This document shows positions 24,129-36,545 of a stretch of DNA of 64,000 nt, piece by piece. The translations under genes and the position numbers were made by a program. The stretch comes from Microbacterium endophyticum (GTDB lineage: Bacteria > Actinomycetota > Actinomycetes > Actinomycetales > Microbacteriaceae). Position 1 is the first letter of the stretch, and each line of letters begins with the position of its first letter. The notes below the pieces were generated by a model. It did no database searches. It was not told the DNA's origin and saw only the letters and a program-made list of their open reading frames with translations. The stretch spans positions 496,001 to 560,000 of the forward strand of contig NZ_CP049255.1 in the NCBI RefSeq assembly GCF_011047135.1. Direction: 5' to 3'.

Positions 24129-25049
24129 CTATTTGATTTCCACCAGCTGATCGACGGGGGTTTGGCCAGCATAGAACGTGTTCTCGAACTCGGCGGGTGG
24201 GACGTCGCCGAGTTAGCCGTGCAGGCGCTGCGTGTTGTGCCAGCTCACCCAGCCGAGCGTCGCGAGCTCGAGATCCTCGACCGTCTTCCAGGGGCCGGGG
24301 CGTGCGGGTCCGCGGACGAGTTCGGTCTTGTAGTAGCCGTTCATCGTCTCGGCAAGGGCATTGTCATAGCTGTCGCCGACGGTTCCAATCGACGGTGTCG
24401 CGCCGATCTCAGCGAGCCGTTCGCCGTAGCGAATCGACGTAAATTGACTGCCCGCATCGCTATGACAACGGGGATCCTCGTGGTGACGACCCCTCGACCA
24501 GCGGGCCATTTCGATGGCGTCGAGAACCATCTCGGTGCGCATGTGTGACGCGCACCGCCACCCGACGATCATTCGGCCGTACGCGTCGATGATGAAGCAG
24601 ACATACGCCACGCCCGCCCACGTCGGCACGAACGTCAGATCCGTCACCCAGAGCCTGTTCAGCGCGGTCGCCGTGAACTTCCGCTTCACCAAATCCGGAT
24701 GCCTCACCGAGGCCGAATCGAGCCTGGTGGTCTTCACTCGCTTCGATCTCGTCGCGCCCTCGATGCCCGCAGCACGCATCACCCGGCCCGTCTGATCTCG
24801 CCCGATACTGAGCCCCGCGCGGCGGGCGCTCTTCCAGAGCTTGCGGACTCCGTACACGCGGTAGTTGTCTTGCCAGAGCGTGACGAGCTCGGGCTTGAGG
24901 GCAGCGTCGCTGAGTGATCGTGCTGACGGGGCGCGGTCTTTCGCGGCGTAGTAGGTGCTCGGAGCCACCTGCAACAAGCTGCAGATGGGCTCGACTCCGA
25001 GCGGGCGACCCTCGACGATATCGTTCTTGTTCGCGTCGATGAACGCGAC
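24129..25049 (-). pseudogene. IS3 transposase orfB with premature stop
   Basis: This is the catalytic IS3-type transposase subunit. The rve integrase core is intact, with acidic residues in WVTDLTFVP, CHSDAGSQF and NALAETMNGYYK. The frame stops at a TAA at 24213-24215 directly after QRLHG. Reading on in the same frame gives LGDVPPAEFENTFYAGQ and ends at TAG 24129-24131, the expected family C-terminus. One substitution (probably TAC or TAT to TAA) thus removes 28 residues. The frame is -1 relative to orfA; the true 5' end is uncertain (25049 marks the overlap with orfA). Confidence 0.88.
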
Positions 25050-28933: not shown

Positions 28934-30118
28934 TCACGCGGCGGACGTTGACCGGGGGAAAAGGATAGAAAAACGTGCGCCGCCGAGTGGAGACTCGGTG
29001 ATACCGATGCTTCCTCCGTGACCTTCGACGATGCGTCGACATGTCGAGAGCCCAAGACCGAGGCCCGGCAGATCGTGATTATCTCCGCGCTCCATGAGAC
29101 CGAAGACTCTTTCCCGCTGGTCGGGAGCTATTCCTGGGCCATTGTCATCGATTGTGATTCGTACCCCTGCGGTGATCGGAACCGCTCTAATCTCAACGAG
29201 TGGATCCTCTCGAGTCGCACGGGCAAACTTGATGGCATTAGCAATCAAATTCTGAAAGAGAACTCCGCACGCCATCTCGTCGGCAACGATGCTCTCGTTC
29301 GCCTCAACCATCACGGAAACGTGCGACTCGGTGATAACGGTAGCGAGATCGTCGAGTGCCTCTTGAATGACGTAGGCAAGTTTGATGTCTTTCACCTCAC
29401 GATCTGCAGGTCCGACGCGTACATAGTTCAGAAGGTCGGCCAGCATTCTCGCCATCCGAACCGACGCTGCATCGGCGCGCCGAAGCGCATGCATCACGTC
29501 AGGGGCATCGGTCGCCTCTGCGGCGTCGGCGGCGAGTTCTATAAACCCTGTGACTGCGCTGAGCGGGTTGGAGAGATCATGAGTTACTTGAGCGGCAAAG
29601 CGCTCGAGTCGGTCATTTGCTGCAAACAACTCGTAGGTGATGCGGCGAAGCTCCAACACGTCCATCACTTGGCCAGCAAGAAGGTCGAGCGCCTCGCGCC
29701 TGTCCAGCGACAATTCGCGAGGGCGCGAATCGAACAAACATAGGGTTCCGATCGCAACGCCCTCAGGTGTGATGAGCGGACTCGAGGCGTAGAACCTCAC
29801 CCGTGCGAGTGTGCCATCAACAAACGGATGGCGCGCGAGAGCCTCGTCTGCGGAAGCATCCGCGATAACGAGCGGTTTCTTTTGCTCAATGACAATGGAA
29901 CACAATGAATCTTCGCGCGCGCACGTTGCACGGTCGATCCCCACCGCGGCTATCTGATGCTGGGAATGCTCGTCGATGATGTTGATCACTGCGACAGGAA
30001 CATCGCAGAGCAGCGTCGCCAGTCGAACGAGCCCCTGAAGATCGGCATCTGCAGGTTCCCCAACAACGCGGTACGTCGAGATCGCCTCGCGCCGGATAAA
30101 GTCTTGAGCCGTTCCCAC
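28934..30118 (-). CDS. Soluble GAF-domain sensor histidine kinase
   Basis: A protein of about 394 residues without membrane segments. An N-terminal GAF domain covers about residues 25-155 (CDVPVAVINIIDEH to GTLCLFDS). It is followed by an H-box (VTHDLSNPLSAVTGF, histidine near residue 180), an N-box (NLIANAIKFA), a G1 box (DDNGPGIA) and a G2 box (GLGLGLS). No response regulator gene is adjacent, so its partner is encoded elsewhere. GTG 30118 follows a GAGGGGG stretch; the frame also reaches 30223. Ligand and target are unknown. Confidence 0.87.
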   Translation of the reverse strand: MGTAQDFIRREAISTYRVVGEPADADLQGLVRLATLLCDVPVAVINIIDEHSQHQIAAVGIDRATCAREDSLCSIVIEQKKPLVIADASADEALARHPFVDGTLARVRFYASSPLITPEGVAIGTLCLFDSRPRELSLDRREALDLLAGQVMDVLELRRITYELFAANDRLERFAAQVTHDLSNPLSAVTGFIELAADAAEATDAPDVMHALRRADAASVRMARMLADLLNYVRVGPADREVKDIKLAYVIQEALDDLATVITESHVSVMVEANESIVADEMACGVLFQNLIANAIKFARATREDPLVEIRAVPITAGVRITIDDNGPGIAPDQRERVFGLMERGDNHDLPGLGLGLSTCRRIVEGHGGSIGITESPLGGARFSILFPRSTSAA

Positions 30119-30188
30119 AACACCGCCCCCTCGCTTTCGTATTTCACAATACGGGGTGCGTGCCTCAACTTGATGCGGGTTGCATCTC

Positions 30189-31376
30189 CTAGTTTTTTGG
30201 TGTTTTTGCGACGCTTTCAGCAATTTGTGTCCACCACGAGGCGGATTCGACTCGTGCCGCAGTCACCGCCTGAGCAGCGCTCTGTGCGACGCTCTCTCGT
30301 TGTTCCCACAGCGCCTCAAGCACCGGGATGCCGTCGGTATCTGCCGCGGCGAGCGCCACAGTGCTCGATTGCCCCCAGTGCGCTAGCGCTCCCCGCTGCT
30401 TTATTCGGGTGTATTCGTCGGTCACGAGTCCGAGAACCGGCACACCAGCGGGTGCCGCGAAAACGGCGGGGTGGTAGCGGCCAGTGATGAGCAGCGCAGC
30501 ACTTCGGGCAGCGAGGGCCGCTTCACGCGGTGTGCCGGTGGGCAACACTTCAGACGCTGACCGCATCCGATCCCGGATCTCATCATGCAAGAGCGCGTCG
30601 CCGCGCGGAGTCACATTTTCCAGAGCTCCAAAGTGCGCGTGGAAGCGGACGGGTTCACCAGTGAGCCCTGCGGCAGCATCGGCGAGCGCTGCGATCCGTG
30701 TCGTCGTTTCGACACGGTCGGCTCCCCCGAGATGAAGCGAGAGGCTGATGAGTACCCCCGACGGCTTCGACGGCAACTCGGTATCGTCCCACGCAAGAAA
30801 CGATGCGTCATCGACGCCGAGCCGCGCGGGCGCCCCCAGAACAGAAGACAGAGCCTGCGACGTTGTTTCGCGCACACCGACGAGCGCTGCGTTCTGGACG
30901 ATCTCGCCCACGAGCTCGCGGTCGCGTTCGTTCAATTCCGGGCCCAAGGTTTGGCCGGTGACAATGAGCGGGCGACCCAGGGATTGAGCGATCCGCGACA
31001 TTGCCACCCGCTCATAAATGTGAGTGGGCCACGTCGACGCAAGGTTTCCGGCACCGGCGATGATGACGGCATCCGCTGACCTGATCTCAGCGATCATCGT
31101 ACGGATGCGGTCATCGGTTGATACTGCCCCGCCAAGAGCGGCATCAATACCGTCAAGTCGAGCTTCCGCGTCGGTGCGGCTCAACAGATCGAAATCGATT
31201 CGACCGATCGCGTCGATTCCGTAGCGCGCGGCCGTTTCTTCAGGAGCCGAAGACACGGCAACGATCTCTGCACCTCGGGCACGCATTTCGTCACAAAGCG
31301 CTTCGAACATCGCCTCATCACCAATGTGCATCATGCCGTCGACGACTCCGACATCACCGATTACAACCAGACGCAT
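30189..31376 (-). CDS. Polysaccharide pyruvyl transferase family protein
   Basis: A 395-residue protein of the PS_pyruv_trans (WcaK/CsaB) family, which attaches pyruvate ketals to sugars in cell-surface glycans. Typical segments are the N-terminal GDVGVVDGMMHIGDEAM, the mid AGAGNLASTWPTH and the C-terminal ITGRYHPAVFAAPAGVPVLGL. A GGGGAG ribosome site precedes ATG 31376. It is divergent from the HEAT/glycosyltransferase gene, with which it probably forms one glycan-building locus. It could instead be a glycosyltransferase-fold relative with another donor. Confidence 0.85.
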   Translation of the reverse strand: MRLVVIGDVGVVDGMMHIGDEAMFEALCDEMRARGAEIVAVSSAPEETAARYGIDAIGRIDFDLLSRTDAEARLDGIDAALGGAVSTDDRIRTMIAEIRSADAVIIAGAGNLASTWPTHIYERVAMSRIAQSLGRPLIVTGQTLGPELNERDRELVGEIVQNAALVGVRETTSQALSSVLGAPARLGVDDASFLAWDDTELPSKPSGVLISLSLHLGGADRVETTTRIAALADAAAGLTGEPVRFHAHFGALENVTPRGDALLHDEIRDRMRSASEVLPTGTPREAALAARSAALLITGRYHPAVFAAPAGVPVLGLVTDEYTRIKQRGALAHWGQSSTVALAAADTDGIPVLEALWEQRESVAQSAAQAVTAARVESASWWTQIAESVAKTPKN

Positions 31377-31548
31377 GACTCCCCTTTCACCGGTCGAACA
31401 GCCCCGTACACGTTAGCCGCTTCTCGCAGCCACCAGCTGGGCAAGTACTCCCGTTCACCACCCCAAACTTCGCGCCAATCAGCTACCTGTGCGCGTTACG
31501 ATTCAAAGCGACTTGCGAACTGTGAGCCAGCAATAAAGGGGGATGCCG

Positions 31549-33717
31549 ATGGGCGTGCAAACAGCTCTCGACGCGGTGCTTCAAACACCGAGCATTGTCG
31601 ATGCCATGCATCTTGCCGATGACTTGGCCTTCGAAGCCGGTCGCGACCCGGGCGTTCGTACGCTGCGTGTGCTGAATACCGCGATCCGCGGCACAGACGA
31701 AGTCGCAGCAATCGCGGCCGTGCACGCTCTCGCTGAGATTTACGACGAGCAAGCCGCTCGCATGCTGTGCGCCCTGCTCTCTGATTCGCGAGCGACCATC
31801 CGGGAGCACGCAACCTGGGCGCTTTCTTCATCATTGCCACGCATCGAAGCGATGGGACGCTTGATCGCTTCCGTCGCTGAAGGTGGGTTCGGCGGCATGC
31901 TGGCGCAGCGCACTCTCGAGGTGTGGTCGAATGATGCCCGCGATGCGCTCTCGGTGGGCCTTGAAGCCGCTCTGCTCGGTATCACTGCACCGGCATCGCG
32001 AGCCCGACTCATCGAGACGCTCGGCCTCGTGCGTGGTGAAGTCGCCACTCGTCCCCTGCTTCTCATCGCACAAGATAAATCCGAATCTCTCGCCGCCCGT
32101 CGCGCGGCGATCGAGGCACTCGGGCAGCGCACAGCACAAAGCGGAATGCTCGTTCCAGCGCTTGAAGAGATCCTCCTCGAGGGCGATCGCATCGGAGCCG
32201 CGGCCCGTATCGCCTTGCTCGACCTCGAGCCAACGCCACACCACAGTGCACGCGACAGTACCGGCGACAGCACCGCCATGACGGTGGCGCAAATGTTCTT
32301 GCACGCCGATATCGACCCGACGCTCGCTTCGGCAGGTGCGGGCGACAACGGAGGTATCGCGACCCTGCTCGTGCGTTTGGGCGATGCTCTCGTCACCGAC
32401 TCAACAGTTGGCGTGCAGCGTGTCCTCACGCTTTCGCGTGGTCCCGTCGCTCAGGCGACGAGCGACCTGCTCGATATCGGCGCGAGCGACTCGGGCCACA
32501 TGTACGCGCGTGTCCCTCTTGCCGACGAGCCGATGCCGTCGGCTGCGGCATGGCCGTTGCGTGTGACGATTCGCCGTGGCATCCGTCGCGTGCTGCGTGC
32601 TGCTGGCCACGTCGATCTGCTGCACCTGAGAATGGCGGATGTCGGAAGCCTCGCTGCAGCAGACGTCGCGCGCGAACTCGGCATTCCGGTCGTGTTCACG
32701 GTCGCACCCGACCCGCACGCCGTTATCCGTTCGCTCGACCTCTCCGGGGATCTCACTCGCATAGACTTCGGCGAGACTGACCTCCGCGAACATTTCTGGT
32801 TCCGCACCCGGCTCGTGCAGCGACTCTCGTCGAACGCAGCACACACGGTGCTCTTTCCCCGCCCCGAGCTGCAGCGCGATATGCAGCAACTCGTGGGCAT
32901 CGACATCACCTCTCACCCCGAACGCCACACGATCGTCGCGGAGGGCGTCGACCTGGTCGTCACCGAGGATTCCGTTGCCGAGGCGCGAGCCCACGCCGAG
33001 GGCGCCGAGGCGACACCGAGCCTCATCGCACTGCGCGAGCTCCTGCAGGGACTACCTGCTGCGCGCCGTTCGCTGCCCCTCATCGTGAGTCTCGGCAGAT
33101 TGCACCGGGTGAAGGGCATGGCAACTCTCGTCGAGACGTGGGCGCAGAGCGACCTTCGAGAACGGGCGAACCTCGTCATCATCGGTGGCGATCTCGAAAC
33201 CCCATCCCTCGATGAGCGCGAACAGCTCGACCGCATCGATGCCGTCGTGCCGCCCACAGATCGCGTCAACCACGGACTGCTCCTTGCGGGTCACCAGCCG
33301 AACAACATTGCGGCCCGTTGGCTTGCTGCTGCACGATTCGGTCTGCCGGGGTTTGCCGCCCCGAACGGCGCCTACGTGTGCGCGAGTGTGAAAGAAGAGT
33401 TTGGTATCGCACTGCTGGAGGCCATGGCGACCGGACTCACCGTCGTCGCCCCCGACGGCGGTGGCCCAGCGACCTATGTCGAGCAGGGACGCACCGGCAT
33501 CTTGACCGAAACCTGGAACCGCGAGATGCTCCAGCGGGCCGTCGGCGCAGCCCTCGACCTCGCTGTACTTCCTGGTACCGAACGAGCGGATGCCGCGCAC
33601 GACATGGTCAGTGACAACTTCACCATTCAGGCCATGGCTTCAGCCCTCGGCCCGGTCTACCGCCATGTCGTCGCCGACGAAGCAGAACTCGTTCGCGAAG
33701 CTCGAGGAGTGCTGTGA
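31549..33717 (+). CDS. HEAT-repeat/GT4 glycosyltransferase fusion
   Basis: A 722-residue protein. Residues about 50-225 are helical HEAT-like repeats (for example AAVHALAEIYDEQAARML and ARRAAIEALGQRTAQSG). Residues about 265-470 form an N-terminal glycosyltransferase domain with GHMYARVPL and HVDLLHLRMADVGSLA. Residues about 510-700 form the donor domain with SLGRLHRVKGMATLVE and the E-x7-E segment KEEFGIALLEA. The layout recalls sucrose-synthase-like GT4 enzymes. ATG 31549 is preferred because AAAGGGGG lies 6 bases upstream. The next gene overlaps its stop. Donor and acceptor are unknown. Confidence 0.82.
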   Translation: MGVQTALDAVLQTPSIVDAMHLADDLAFEAGRDPGVRTLRVLNTAIRGTDEVAAIAAVHALAEIYDEQAARMLCALLSDSRATIREHATWALSSSLPRIEAMGRLIASVAEGGFGGMLAQRTLEVWSNDARDALSVGLEAALLGITAPASRARLIETLGLVRGEVATRPLLLIAQDKSESLAARRAAIEALGQRTAQSGMLVPALEEILLEGDRIGAAARIALLDLEPTPHHSARDSTGDSTAMTVAQMFLHADIDPTLASAGAGDNGGIATLLVRLGDALVTDSTVGVQRVLTLSRGPVAQATSDLLDIGASDSGHMYARVPLADEPMPSAAAWPLRVTIRRGIRRVLRAAGHVDLLHLRMADVGSLAAADVARELGIPVVFTVAPDPHAVIRSLDLSGDLTRIDFGETDLREHFWFRTRLVQRLSSNAAHTVLFPRPELQRDMQQLVGIDITSHPERHTIVAEGVDLVVTEDSVAEARAHAEGAEATPSLIALRELLQGLPAARRSLPLIVSLGRLHRVKGMATLVETWAQSDLRERANLVIIGGDLETPSLDEREQLDRIDAVVPPTDRVNHGLLLAGHQPNNIAARWLAAARFGLPGFAAPNGAYVCASVKEEFGIALLEAMATGLTVVAPDGGGPATYVEQGRTGILTETWNREMLQRAVGAALDLAVLPGTERADAAHDMVSDNFTIQAMASALGPVYRHVVADEAELVREARGVL

Positions 33718-35024
33718 CGCTCCTCGTCATCAGCCCCGACTACGCGTCGCACCTTCTACCGCTCGCAACTCTTGCCACAGCATGGCGAGATTCCGGTGAG
33801 CGCGTCGTGGTGGCAACGGGCCCCGCGACCGCACCGATTGTGCACGACTTCGGCCTCGAGCACCACGAGCTCGCGCTCGGCCGAGGGAACAACGCCCGAA
33901 TCGTCCGCACCGACGAGCAGGAAGCCGAAGAATCTGCGTCGCTGCAGGGGTTTTTCGATGCCACGCGACGCGGCATGATCCCGACTCTCCGCTACCAGGC
34001 CCACGAACGTCTCACCGACTTGATGTGGCATCCGGTCGAAACCGGCCGACGTGTACTCGATCTGGTGGCGCAGCTTCAGCCGGATGAGATCATCGTCGAC
34101 CACCTCGCGTTCAGCGCAAGAGTCGCGCTACAGGCCGCGGGAATCGCGTACGGCGACGTCGTGCTCGGACACCCCACCGCGCTGCCGGTCGCGGGGGAAG
34201 TGTATGGATGCGCACCATTTTGGCCCCGCGCGTTCACGCCGACCGCAGAAGAGCTCGCCGAGCTTCGCGCACTGTGCGAGCAGGTATCGACGAGCTTCAC
34301 CGCCGAGTGGAACACCGCAGCACTCGCCATCAACCCTGCGACTCCCCCGACAAAGGATGCCTTCGCTGAGCATGGTGCGCGCGTTCTGTATAACTACCCC
34401 GCCGCTCTCGCCGACGGCGACGGCCGCCAGCTTCCGCCGCACGAATTCCTCGGTTCCACACGACGCACAGAGCCAGCAGATGACGAAGTCGACGCCTGGA
34501 CTTCGACAGACGAACCCTTCGCGTACGTCAGCTTCGGCAGCTTCCTCTCGGTGCGTGACGATGTACTCGCTCGTGTCAGCGCGGCGCTGAAGAAGATCGG
34601 GATGCGGGCCGCAATCGCTACCGGATCGACACCGCCGTCGGCCCTCGGTGCCATGCCCGACGGGTGGCTCGTTCGGGAGTATCTGCCTCAGGTGCGGTTG
34701 CTCGGCTCAGCCTCATTCGCGGTGACCCACGGCGGAAACAACTCGGTCACCGAGGCAATAGGGCAGGGTATTCCTCTCGTTGTCTTGCCGTTTTCGACAG
34801 ACCAGTTCGCCGGAGCGGCCGCGATCGAACGCACGGGTCTTGGAGAAAGTCTCGACCCGAACTCCGCAAGTGTCGATGAGCTGGCGGCGTGTTTTGCGCG
34901 CGTCCGCGACTTTCCCGTGACGACCCGCGCTCGACTCGCGACAATCGCGGCAGACCAGCGCGAGAGCCCGGGGCCCCAGATCGCTTACGCGACTTTGCGT
35001 TCGGCCCACTCCGAAACAAGCTGA
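33714..35024 (+). CDS. GT1 (MGT/UGT-like) glycosyltransferase
   Basis: A 436-residue GT-B enzyme of the macrolide/flavonoid type. The N-terminal LLVISPDYASHLLPLATLA acceptor-domain start, AYVSFGSF and the donor segment THGGNNSVTEAIGQGIPLVVLPFSTDQ are characteristic. The donor is likely a UDP-sugar; the acceptor may be a lipid or hydrophobic molecule. GTG 33714 overlaps the stop of the HEAT/GT4 gene by four bases, so both are coupled. Its 3' end overlaps the convergent GT2 gene by 40 bases. Confidence 0.88.
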   Translation: MTLLVISPDYASHLLPLATLATAWRDSGERVVVATGPATAPIVHDFGLEHHELALGRGNNARIVRTDEQEAEESASLQGFFDATRRGMIPTLRYQAHERLTDLMWHPVETGRRVLDLVAQLQPDEIIVDHLAFSARVALQAAGIAYGDVVLGHPTALPVAGEVYGCAPFWPRAFTPTAEELAELRALCEQVSTSFTAEWNTAALAINPATPPTKDAFAEHGARVLYNYPAALADGDGRQLPPHEFLGSTRRTEPADDEVDAWTSTDEPFAYVSFGSFLSVRDDVLARVSAALKKIGMRAAIATGSTPPSALGAMPDGWLVREYLPQVRLLGSASFAVTHGGNNSVTEAIGQGIPLVVLPFSTDQFAGAAAIERTGLGESLDPNSASVDELAACFARVRDFPVTTRARLATIAADQRESPGPQIAYATLRSAHSETS

Positions 35025-35668
35025 TCCATCGCGGTCGGATCCCCGGCAGCGTCGCGGTAGCGCTCCATGAGCGAGGCGTTCGCGTCGTAGTGGGTACCGG
35101 CACGAATTTCGGCGACGTGGCTCAAGGCATACACGCGACCAGCGTGGCGAACAGGCGCAGCTCCCAAAAGCGTTTCGTGGGCGAGATACCAGGCGGCGTC
35201 TTCAAAGCCCCAACCACGGAAGCGTTCGTCTTGCCCACCGTGCGCGTCCCACGTGCGGCGGGTTGTTACGTAGACTCCCGAGCAGGCTGTCTCAACAACC
35301 TGTTCGACGGTGCATTCCGACACTTCGCGGCCGGCCATCACCTGCGCGGTACCGCTCTCACCCAACCACCGGTACTCGGTGTAGGGCAGGTGCACGAGTC
35401 CGCTCGTTGCTGCGGCCGCCACGGCTTCGCGAAGTGCGGCTGGTTCGGGCAACGTGTCGGCGTCGTTGATGACGACAACCTCATCGCTCGAAAGTGCAGC
35501 GACACCGACGTTCCGGCACGCGGCGAGATTGAATATTCCGTCGGTGGCATCGACGGTGCGCAGATCAAACTCGGGCAGATATTCGGCGTACCAGCGCTGC
35601 AGCGCTTCAAATGCGGGAACGCGTGAGGGAGACTCCCGCCAGGGAACGATGACAGTCACGATCGGCAC
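34985..35668 (-). CDS. GT2 glycosyltransferase with GT7-type C-terminal domain
   Basis: A 227-residue GT-A enzyme without membrane segments. The DxD-like metal site is in VVINDADTLPEP. GTQ-like positions are replaced, but GGQDERFRGWGFEDAAW matches the Glyco_transf_7C (galactosyltransferase-like) segment. It ends 40 bases inside the 3' end of the GT1 gene on the opposite strand. It probably works with the neighbouring glycosyltransferases on one glycan. Confidence 0.86.
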   Translation of the reverse strand: MPIVTVIVPWRESPSRVPAFEALQRWYAEYLPEFDLRTVDATDGIFNLAACRNVGVAALSSDEVVVINDADTLPEPAALREAVAAAATSGLVHLPYTEYRWLGESGTAQVMAGREVSECTVEQVVETACSGVYVTTRRTWDAHGGQDERFRGWGFEDAAWYLAHETLLGAAPVRHAGRVYALSHVAEIRAGTHYDANASLMERYRDAAGDPTAMDQLVSEWAERKVA

Positions 35669-35708: not shown

Positions 35709-36545
35709 TCAGACGAGAAAAAAGTGGTCGAGAAGTCCCGGATTATGGGCGTGTACTAGCACCAGAAAGACGACAGCGTCGAACAGCAGATGCACGGCGA
35801 CGATGTACGCCAACGAGTGCGTGCGCAAGAAGATGAACCCCTGCAACAGTGCGAAGGGAATCGTGAGAGCCGGCCCCCACGCCCGATAGCCCAGCTCCCA
35901 GAGAAACGCGACGAAAACGATCGCCTGCAGCGCGTTCGCAACCGCCGCGGGAAAGTGACGCAGCAAGAGGGCGAAAACCGTGCAGATGAAGAAGAGTTCG
36001 TCCCAGATTCCCACAGCGCCCACGCCAACGAACAGCCGCCCGACGAGATCTGGGGTGTTCACAACCGGCCAGTTGAGATACACGCCCGAAGTGATGAAAT
36101 AAAAGGGGAGGATGAGCCAACCAAGTACCAAAACCGCCGCGAGCCAGGCCCATTGAAAGCGATTCCACCGGCGACCGGTACGCCACGGAAACGCGACGGC
36201 GCGGTCACGATAGATAAAACGCGACACCGCGTACGGCACTACCACCGCTCCTCCGAGCGCGAGAGTAAATCTCAGCATCGCGAGGTTGTCGAGTTCAGCG
36301 GCAAGATCAATCGCGCTCACGATGAGAAGACCGATCGCGATCAGCGAAAGGTCACGCAGCAGACTCGGATGCCCCGTGGCATCCGTCGTCTTTGCACGTC
36401 GATCAACCCACCACGCACCCGCGAGCGACAGCGCGATCAAGACCCAACCCAGCCATGGCACTCGCAAGACAAAGAAAGCGGGTGCCGCAGCGCAGACCAG
36501 CAGCGCTGGAATGAGGCGCATGGGCCACCGCTGAATGCTACTCAT
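35709..36545 (-). CDS. CPBP/Abi-like intramembrane protein lacking key catalytic residues
   Basis: A 278-residue protein with about eight membrane helices. The motif region WDELFFIC (about residues 181-188) aligns with the EExxxR motif of CPBP intramembrane proteases, but the first Glu is Asp and the Arg is Ile. A later HLLFDAVVF fits the third motif (F/HxxxD). It may be non-proteolytic or use altered chemistry. ATG 36545 overlaps the trmB stop (ATGA), so the pair is co-translated. Confidence 0.7.
   Translation of the reverse strand: MSSIQRWPMRLIPALLVCAAAPAFFVLRVPWLGWVLIALSLAGAWWVDRRAKTTDATGHPSLLRDLSLIAIGLLIVSAIDLAAELDNLAMLRFTLALGGAVVVPYAVSRFIYRDRAVAFPWRTGRRWNRFQWAWLAAVLVLGWLILPFYFITSGVYLNWPVVNTPDLVGRLFVGVGAVGIWDELFFICTVFALLLRHFPAAVANALQAIVFVAFLWELGYRAWGPALTIPFALLQGFIFLRTHSLAYIVAVHLLFDAVVFLVLVHAHNPGLLDHFFLV

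Follow-up and report, generated by a model that had tools for sequence, protein, structure and literature searches.

Gene layout and architecture of the HEAT-GT4 protein

We analyzed a locus of four genes in Microbacterium endophyticum, located in a stretch of 64,000 nucleotides (positions 496,001 to 560,000 of contig NZ_CP049255.1, in the following called the window) and including a gene that encodes a fusion between a HEAT-repeat solenoid and a glycosyltransferase of family GT4 (HEAT-GT4). The architecture of the fusion, the conserved motifs, the gene order, and the co-occurrence of the genes were computed for the features listed here.

30189..31376, minus strand: polysaccharide pyruvyl transferase (PYR, PF04230), 395 amino acids, transcribed away from HEAT-GT4; belongs to the optional add-on unit
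31377..31548, no strand: 172-base intergenic region between the divergent PYR and HEAT-GT4 genes, from the gene coordinates
31549..33717, plus strand: HEAT-GT4 fusion, 722 amino acids, with the HEAT solenoid at residues 1-226 and the GT-B GT4 domain at about 243-710
33714..35024, plus strand: GT1 (UDPGT/MGT-like) glycosyltransferase, 436 amino acids, constant partner of HEAT-GT4
34985..35668, minus strand: GT2/GT7C-like short glycosyltransferase (GT2), 227 amino acids, convergent with GT1; part of the optional add-on unit

The stop of HEAT-GT4 and the start of GT1 share four bases (33714-33717), and the two genes are translationally coupled in the window, while the 3' end of GT1 shares 40 bases with the convergent GT2 gene. 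The region separating the divergent PYR and HEAT-GT4 genes is presumed to hold both promoters; a search of 31377..31548 for a sigma-70-type match found none. A previous sequence-only reading of this DNA had described GT1 as coupled to the fusion, GT2 as overlapping, and PYR as divergent, in agreement with these coordinates and overlaps. The frame of HEAT-GT4 is open throughout and has two candidate starts (31543 and 31549), of which the one at 31549 agrees with an N-terminus, MG[VI]QT, kept in the relatives.

The same reading had proposed that a protein of about 722 residues joins HEAT repeats to a GT4 enzyme, and this is borne out by Pfam domains and by confident AlphaFold models. HEAT_2 matches residues 37-92 with 35.5 bits (cut-off 27.7), placing the protein among the HEAT-repeat proteins, and Glycos_transf_1 (PF00534), Glyco_trans_1_4 (PF13692), and Glyco_transf_4 (PF13439) all score above their cut-offs. 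The model of the full-length protein has a predicted local distance difference test score (pLDDT) of 92, with 14 helices across residues 3-226 and an alpha/beta part from residue 244 that resembles GT-B enzymes in structure comparison. Modelled alone, the HEAT part reaches a pLDDT of 96.7 and a predicted template modelling score of 0.90. A HEAT fold is thus predicted in the N-terminal part as anticipated, only the span differs, being about 1-226 in the model instead of about 50-225. The full-length matches found with VIA-align include receptor constructs, in which we take the GT domain to serve as a fusion partner (unconfirmed). A chance open reading frame or a mis-joined frame is ruled out by full-length relatives with the same domains, and a fusion peculiar to this one genome by relatives in many genomes.

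Membership of family GT4 follows from the GT-B fold, the Glycos_transf_1 domain, and the presence of an EX7E motif. In an alignment of 47 HEAT-GT4 sequences, where the 46 others are 49-72% identical to the window protein, the EX7E glutamates E616 and E624 as well as R517 and K522 are invariant (47/47), and we take these residues to be the GT4 catalytic motif. Conservation is lower in the HEAT part than in the two GT-B halves (mean entropy 1.35 vs 0.95 and 1.11), and within the HEAT part the B helices are more conserved than the A helices (0.92 vs 1.65 bits, p 6.5e-8) and carry most of the conserved polar residues, namely R85, E86, H87, W90, Q120, E124, W126, R151, R153, E156, R184, R220, and D225. 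Because the B helices, which normally form the inner face of HEAT-type solenoids, are the more conserved ones, the HEAT part likely offers a binding groove, be it for GT1, for the acceptor, or for its own GT domain. No strong membrane segment is present in any of the four proteins: hydropathy analysis of HEAT-GT4, GT1, GT2, and PYR gave no typical membrane segment, the highest peak being 1.39.

A constant HEAT-GT4/GT1 pair and an optional GT2/PYR unit

We surveyed 299 genomes of the family Microbacteriaceae, the genome of the window included, with limits of E <= 1e-60 for HEAT-GT4, 1e-40 for GT1, 1e-20 for PYR, and 1e-15 for GT2. HEAT-GT4 is found in 69 of these genomes, spread over 22 of 85 genera, and GT1 is found in exactly the same 69 with one match each, leaving 230 genomes with neither gene. 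GT1 adjoins HEAT-GT4 on the same strand in 69/69 genomes, at 0-153 bases from the match end. The sequence-only reading held that conserved co-occurrence in Microbacteriaceae would support a pathway, and for the pair the co-occurrence is exact. Likewise, GT1 follows HEAT-GT4 in the same direction in all of 80 named loci (kept of 166 found; several on short contigs), the GT1 match being partial in two of them (L056, 186 amino acids; L093, 122 amino acids), and the two genes are also neighbours in the four loci retrieved beyond the family (three from a single genus). The identities of HEAT-GT4 and GT1 show a mirror correlation of r 0.78 (79 rows), which we have not used as evidence since species relatedness is uncontrolled in it. 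GT1 itself belongs to the UDPGT family (PF00201, 61 bits, cut-off 19.5), and its H13, H339-G340-G341 (HGG), and D363-Q364, presumably catalytic motifs, are conserved in at least 97% of 79 sequences.

A protein search with HEAT-GT4 gave 1727 matches, and the best 120 of the 1727 span 98-100% of the query with the same four Pfam domains, showing that HEAT-GT4 is a conserved protein family. The database names of the relatives, where given, are generic (such as “glycosyltransferase”, “D-inositol 3-phosphate glycosyltransferase”), and no study of a HEAT-glycosyltransferase family or of the module was found in the searchable literature, which covers few subscription journals. A class-wide draw at 1e-40 found HEAT-GT4 in 6 of 296 genomes, namely that of the window, one each from its family and its order, and three from a single genus of another family. 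The 34 other genomes of the same genus gave at most a weak partial GT4 match (best 5e-8), therefore the lineage of the window is set apart in the genus together with M. halimionae, whose HEAT-GT4 is 93% identical to the window protein. In a FastTree phylogeny the window sequence clusters with M. halimionae and then with mostly Microbacterium sequences.

PYR contains the ketal pyruvyltransferase domain (PF04230, 96.4 bits, cut-off 25.3), and its R300-Y301-H302 is conserved in at least 95% of 36 sequences. The Pfam matches of GT2 fall below the cut-offs (Glyco_tranf_2_2, PF10111, 22.2 of 27.3 bits; Glyco_transf_7C, PF02709, 20.5 of 23 bits), and residues 4-219 match the actinophage family phrog_1721 (“galactosyl transferase”) with 98.3 bits, nearly over the full length, but GT2 is chromosomal and found only alongside the HEAT-GT4/GT1 pair in the 299 genomes. 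D69-A-D71 (DAD) and G152-W-G-x-E-D157 (GWGxED) of GT2 are conserved in at least 95% of 37 sequences, and we take them, like R300-Y301-H302 of PYR, to be catalytic motifs. Judged from these matches, membership of known families appears firm for HEAT-GT4, GT1, and PYR, and the placement of GT2 rests on the PHROG match.

Among the 73 of the 80 loci with room on both sides (seven on short contigs were excluded, and absence is defined as no tblastn match at 1e-10 in the expected place), 31 have both PYR and GT2, 38 have neither, two have PYR alone, and two GT2 alone. GT2 occurs in 27 of the 299 genomes, and all 27 also have HEAT-GT4, GT1, and PYR, so that 27 of the 69 pair-bearing genomes (approximately 40%) carry the add-on. 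PYR occurs in 33 genomes, one of which (G309) has the pair and PYR without GT2. GT2 lies apart from the pair in 4 of the 27 genomes (more than 5 kb away or on a different contig) and PYR in 7 (more than 3 kb away or on a different contig; in G354 only about 4 kb), and in G109, G178, and G232 (L162, L163, L164) the two genes stand in tandem elsewhere in the genome. The add-on unit can thus stand apart from HEAT-GT4/GT1, and because GT2 does so in four genomes and PYR in seven, its co-occurrence with the pair is more than linkage. Fisher's test of HEAT-GT4 with GT2 gave a p of 6e-20, a value that ignores shared ancestry; a HEAT-GT4 tree of 73 rows shows 7 changes of PYR and 8 of GT2. Collectively, the organization is a fixed HEAT-GT4/GT1 core with an optional GT2/PYR unit.

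A putative glycan-building module and alternative functions

The locus points to an uncharacterised decorated-sugar pathway in actinobacteria. A pathway had also been suggested by the sequence-only reading, and this part is supported by the co-occurrence of HEAT-GT4, GT1, GT2, and PYR, while its statement that no membrane-bound enzyme is adjacent was wrong, since an Rce1-like CAAX protease (listed below) lies 40 bases past GT2. We favour a reading with an even chance of being correct, in which the locus is a conserved glycan-building module where the paired cytosolic transferases start a short glycan, and the add-on unit extends and pyruvylates it. For this module we infer an order of action, donor sugars, an acceptor, pyruvylation of its glycan, a role of the HEAT part, and a route of export. 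HEAT-GT4 and GT1, presumably a retaining and an inverting enzyme (mechanisms by family), would form the cytosolic core and work in succession. Their acceptor would be one that many actinobacteria share, with a membrane-lipid or polyprenyl-linked sugar as the likeliest candidate. The inner face of the HEAT solenoid would hold GT1 (or the acceptor), and the first glycoside would be handed directly to GT1. GT2 and PYR would then add a further sugar and a pyruvate ketal to give an acidic surface glycoconjugate, which could be exported through housekeeping machinery.

Several observations weigh against this reading. Three conserved polar residues (R37, R40, and E139) are found on the A helices of the HEAT part, and the conservation of the B helices could instead stem from packing or from internal contacts with the GT domain. 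PYR is found without the HEAT-GT4/GT1 pair in 5 of its 33 genomes, and approximately six independent pairs on the tree have PYR and GT2 changing the same way in 5.4 (mean) and the opposite way in 0, with a median p of 0.06. The genome of the window carries three PF04230 genes, that is two besides PYR, and pyruvylation therefore probably extends beyond this locus in this genome; PYR may serve several glycans. The neighbours of pairs without PYR are diverse: in a Pfam scan of 81 of 106 genes, one per cluster, from loci without a PYR match, none of the 25 most frequent families (of 155 in all) exceeds 4 of the 81. Outside these 25 families, single glycan genes may be present among the neighbours. 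Since the neighbours are so varied, synthesis of the acceptor probably takes place elsewhere, and the acceptor is probably shared by these bacteria.

The likeness of HEAT-GT4 and GT1 to enzymes acting on small molecules raises an alternative, unlikely in our judgement, where the product of the pair is a diglycoside, either soluble or lipophilic (of a carotenoid, quinone, compatible solute, or specialised metabolite), and the GT2/PYR surface glycan merely travels along. The GT4 domain is similar to sucrose-phosphate synthase and to MshA, GT1 is a member of the UDPGT/MGT group, whose enzymes glycosylate aglycones, and the 38 of 73 loci with neither add-on gene are as this alternative would have it. 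A genuine sucrose-phosphate or sucrose synthase is ruled out by the scores of HEAT-GT4 against the NCBIfam cut-offs (68.4 of 576 and 54.9 of 810.4 bits); HEAT-GT4 is approximately 20% identical to these enzymes, differs from them by the N-terminal HEAT solenoid, and has partner genes that are not known to take part in sucrose metabolism. MshA (model score 30.7 of 462.5 bits) and other actinobacterial GT4 enzymes have no HEAT domain and lie in another gene context. GT1 resembles the macrolide-type enzymes CalG1, YjiC, and OleD, which glycosylate small lipophilic aglycones, in its C-terminal donor domain with HGG and DQ motifs, but its best alignments cover mostly the C-terminal half, the subfamily cut-offs are not reached, and it is always paired with HEAT-GT4. 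It also speaks against the diglycoside that GT2 is confined to genomes with the pair even where it is not adjacent, which makes GT2/PYR look not independent, and that no additional gene keeps a fixed position close to the pair.

Protein glycosylation, which we regard as distinctly unlikely, would have the HEAT part select protein acceptors and the GT4 domain add the first sugar, with GT1, GT2, and PYR extending and capping it. Eukaryotic O-GlcNAc transferase is a protein glycosyltransferase where a TPR solenoid is joined to a GT-B enzyme, and we take it (TPR-GT41) as an architectural analogue because the solenoid precedes the GT-B catalytic part as in HEAT-GT4, which has HEAT instead of TPR repeats and GT4 instead of GT41. 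The analogy fits an N-terminal helical solenoid with conserved inner helices on a GT-B enzyme, and the closest solved HEAT folds include the protein binders alphaRep and importin beta. The pair often lies without recurrent glycan genes nearby, and GT2 relatives are frequent in actinophages, with 205 phage records (190 Mycobacterium, 14 Gordonia, 1 Mycolicibacterium; some double entries) and 33-34% identity among the 30 listed. According to PMC11256854, actinophage glycosyltransferases probably act on virion proteins. However, beyond GT1, GT2, and PYR no gene is found at a fixed place in the 80 loci, so that no acceptor protein is indicated, a result that does not decide the matter, and the resemblances to sucrose-phosphate synthase, MshA, and the GT1 relatives named above point to small molecules instead.

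Pyruvylation raises a further alternative, which we find improbable, namely that the four enzymes decorate a side branch of a secondary cell-wall polymer of the teichuronic-acid or galactan type on undecaprenyl phosphate, as in pyruvylated Promicromonospora walls. Excerpts of PMC6801904 describe pyruvylated sugars of actinobacteria in cell-wall polymers of Promicromonospora and Nocardiopsis and in mycobacterial glycolipids, and they give R337/L338/H339 as the phosphoenolpyruvate contacts of Pvg1p; in the consulted portion of PMC10978784, “pyruvic acid” is an auxin intermediate and no glycan ketal. Promicromonospora sukumoe carries the HEAT-GT4 family (P0111, P0117), and the genome of the window has two PF00953 matches. 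The chemically analysed Promicromonospora strains may lack these genes, though, and in the 80 loci the module has no recurrent companion among polymerases, flippases, or initiating enzymes. PYR is like the CsaB-type ketal pyruvyltransferases in its PF04230 domain, but it falls below the CsaB equivalog cut-off (TIGR03609, NCBIfam, 105.4 of 213.1 bits), and no S-layer or secondary cell-wall polymer genes adjoin it. Its R-Y-H resembles the R337/L338/H339 of Pvg1p, a correspondence by our own reading rather than by alignment.

A bolder version of the favoured glycan-building module, which we consider tentative and rather unlikely, is that HEAT-GT4 and GT1 constitute a novel type of two-enzyme complex with the HEAT part as a scaffold for substrate or partner, a design like that of TPR-OGT, and that the add-on makes an undescribed pyruvylated actinobacterial glycoconjugate, possibly protein-linked. 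Because HEAT-GT4 and GT1 co-occur exactly and only some species have the add-on, the function can be tested, and the function of the module, once resolved, would reveal the role of a HEAT solenoid attached to a GT-B enzyme.

Surroundings of the module and mobile elements

Outside the four genes, the Rce1-like protease, TrmB, and DUF3097 are found beyond GT2, and a GAF/histidine kinase lies beyond PYR; three features of the wider neighbourhood are listed here.

35709-36545: Rce1-like CAAX protease, hydropathy peak 2.52, 40 bases beyond GT2
28934-30223, minus strand: GAF-HisKA-HATPase histidine kinase, just downstream of PYR
24213-24977: integrase-core (rve) and HTH_21 protein, about 5 kb from the four-gene module

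Each of the outer neighbours is found in one of the 80 related loci, that of M. halimionae (L039 for the Rce1-like protease; tblastn at 1e-10). The listed TTG start of the histidine kinase overlaps PYR by 35 bases, and its true start is unsure. The rve and HTH_21 protein probably belongs to an element of the insertion sequence type IS3, judging from its domains. A larger conserved cluster was rejected: the genes of the 80 loci, predicted by codon usage and then clustered, gave no further widespread gene, and the next commonest clusters, found in 20 and 17 loci at scattered positions, look like a dehydrogenase and an ATP-binding cassette ATPase, judged from their sequences. Elsewhere in the genome, the two other PF04230 genes (G000:C1:616880-617851 and 1630624-1631511; L173 and L172) lie approximately 11 and 3 kb from GT4 matches.

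Plasmid cargo was likewise rejected, as a search of 72,556 plasmid records at 1e-30 gave no match to HEAT-GT4. In the Gordonia phage Kudefre three genes labelled glycosyltransferase are found close together. One of 50,697 phage records matches HEAT-GT4 at 1e-10, “UNVERIFIED Bacteriophage sp.” L169 (MT835579.1), an unannotated 29-kb clone from human faeces that encodes a 48%-identical HEAT-GT4 relative and may be a chromosomal fragment mislabelled as phage.

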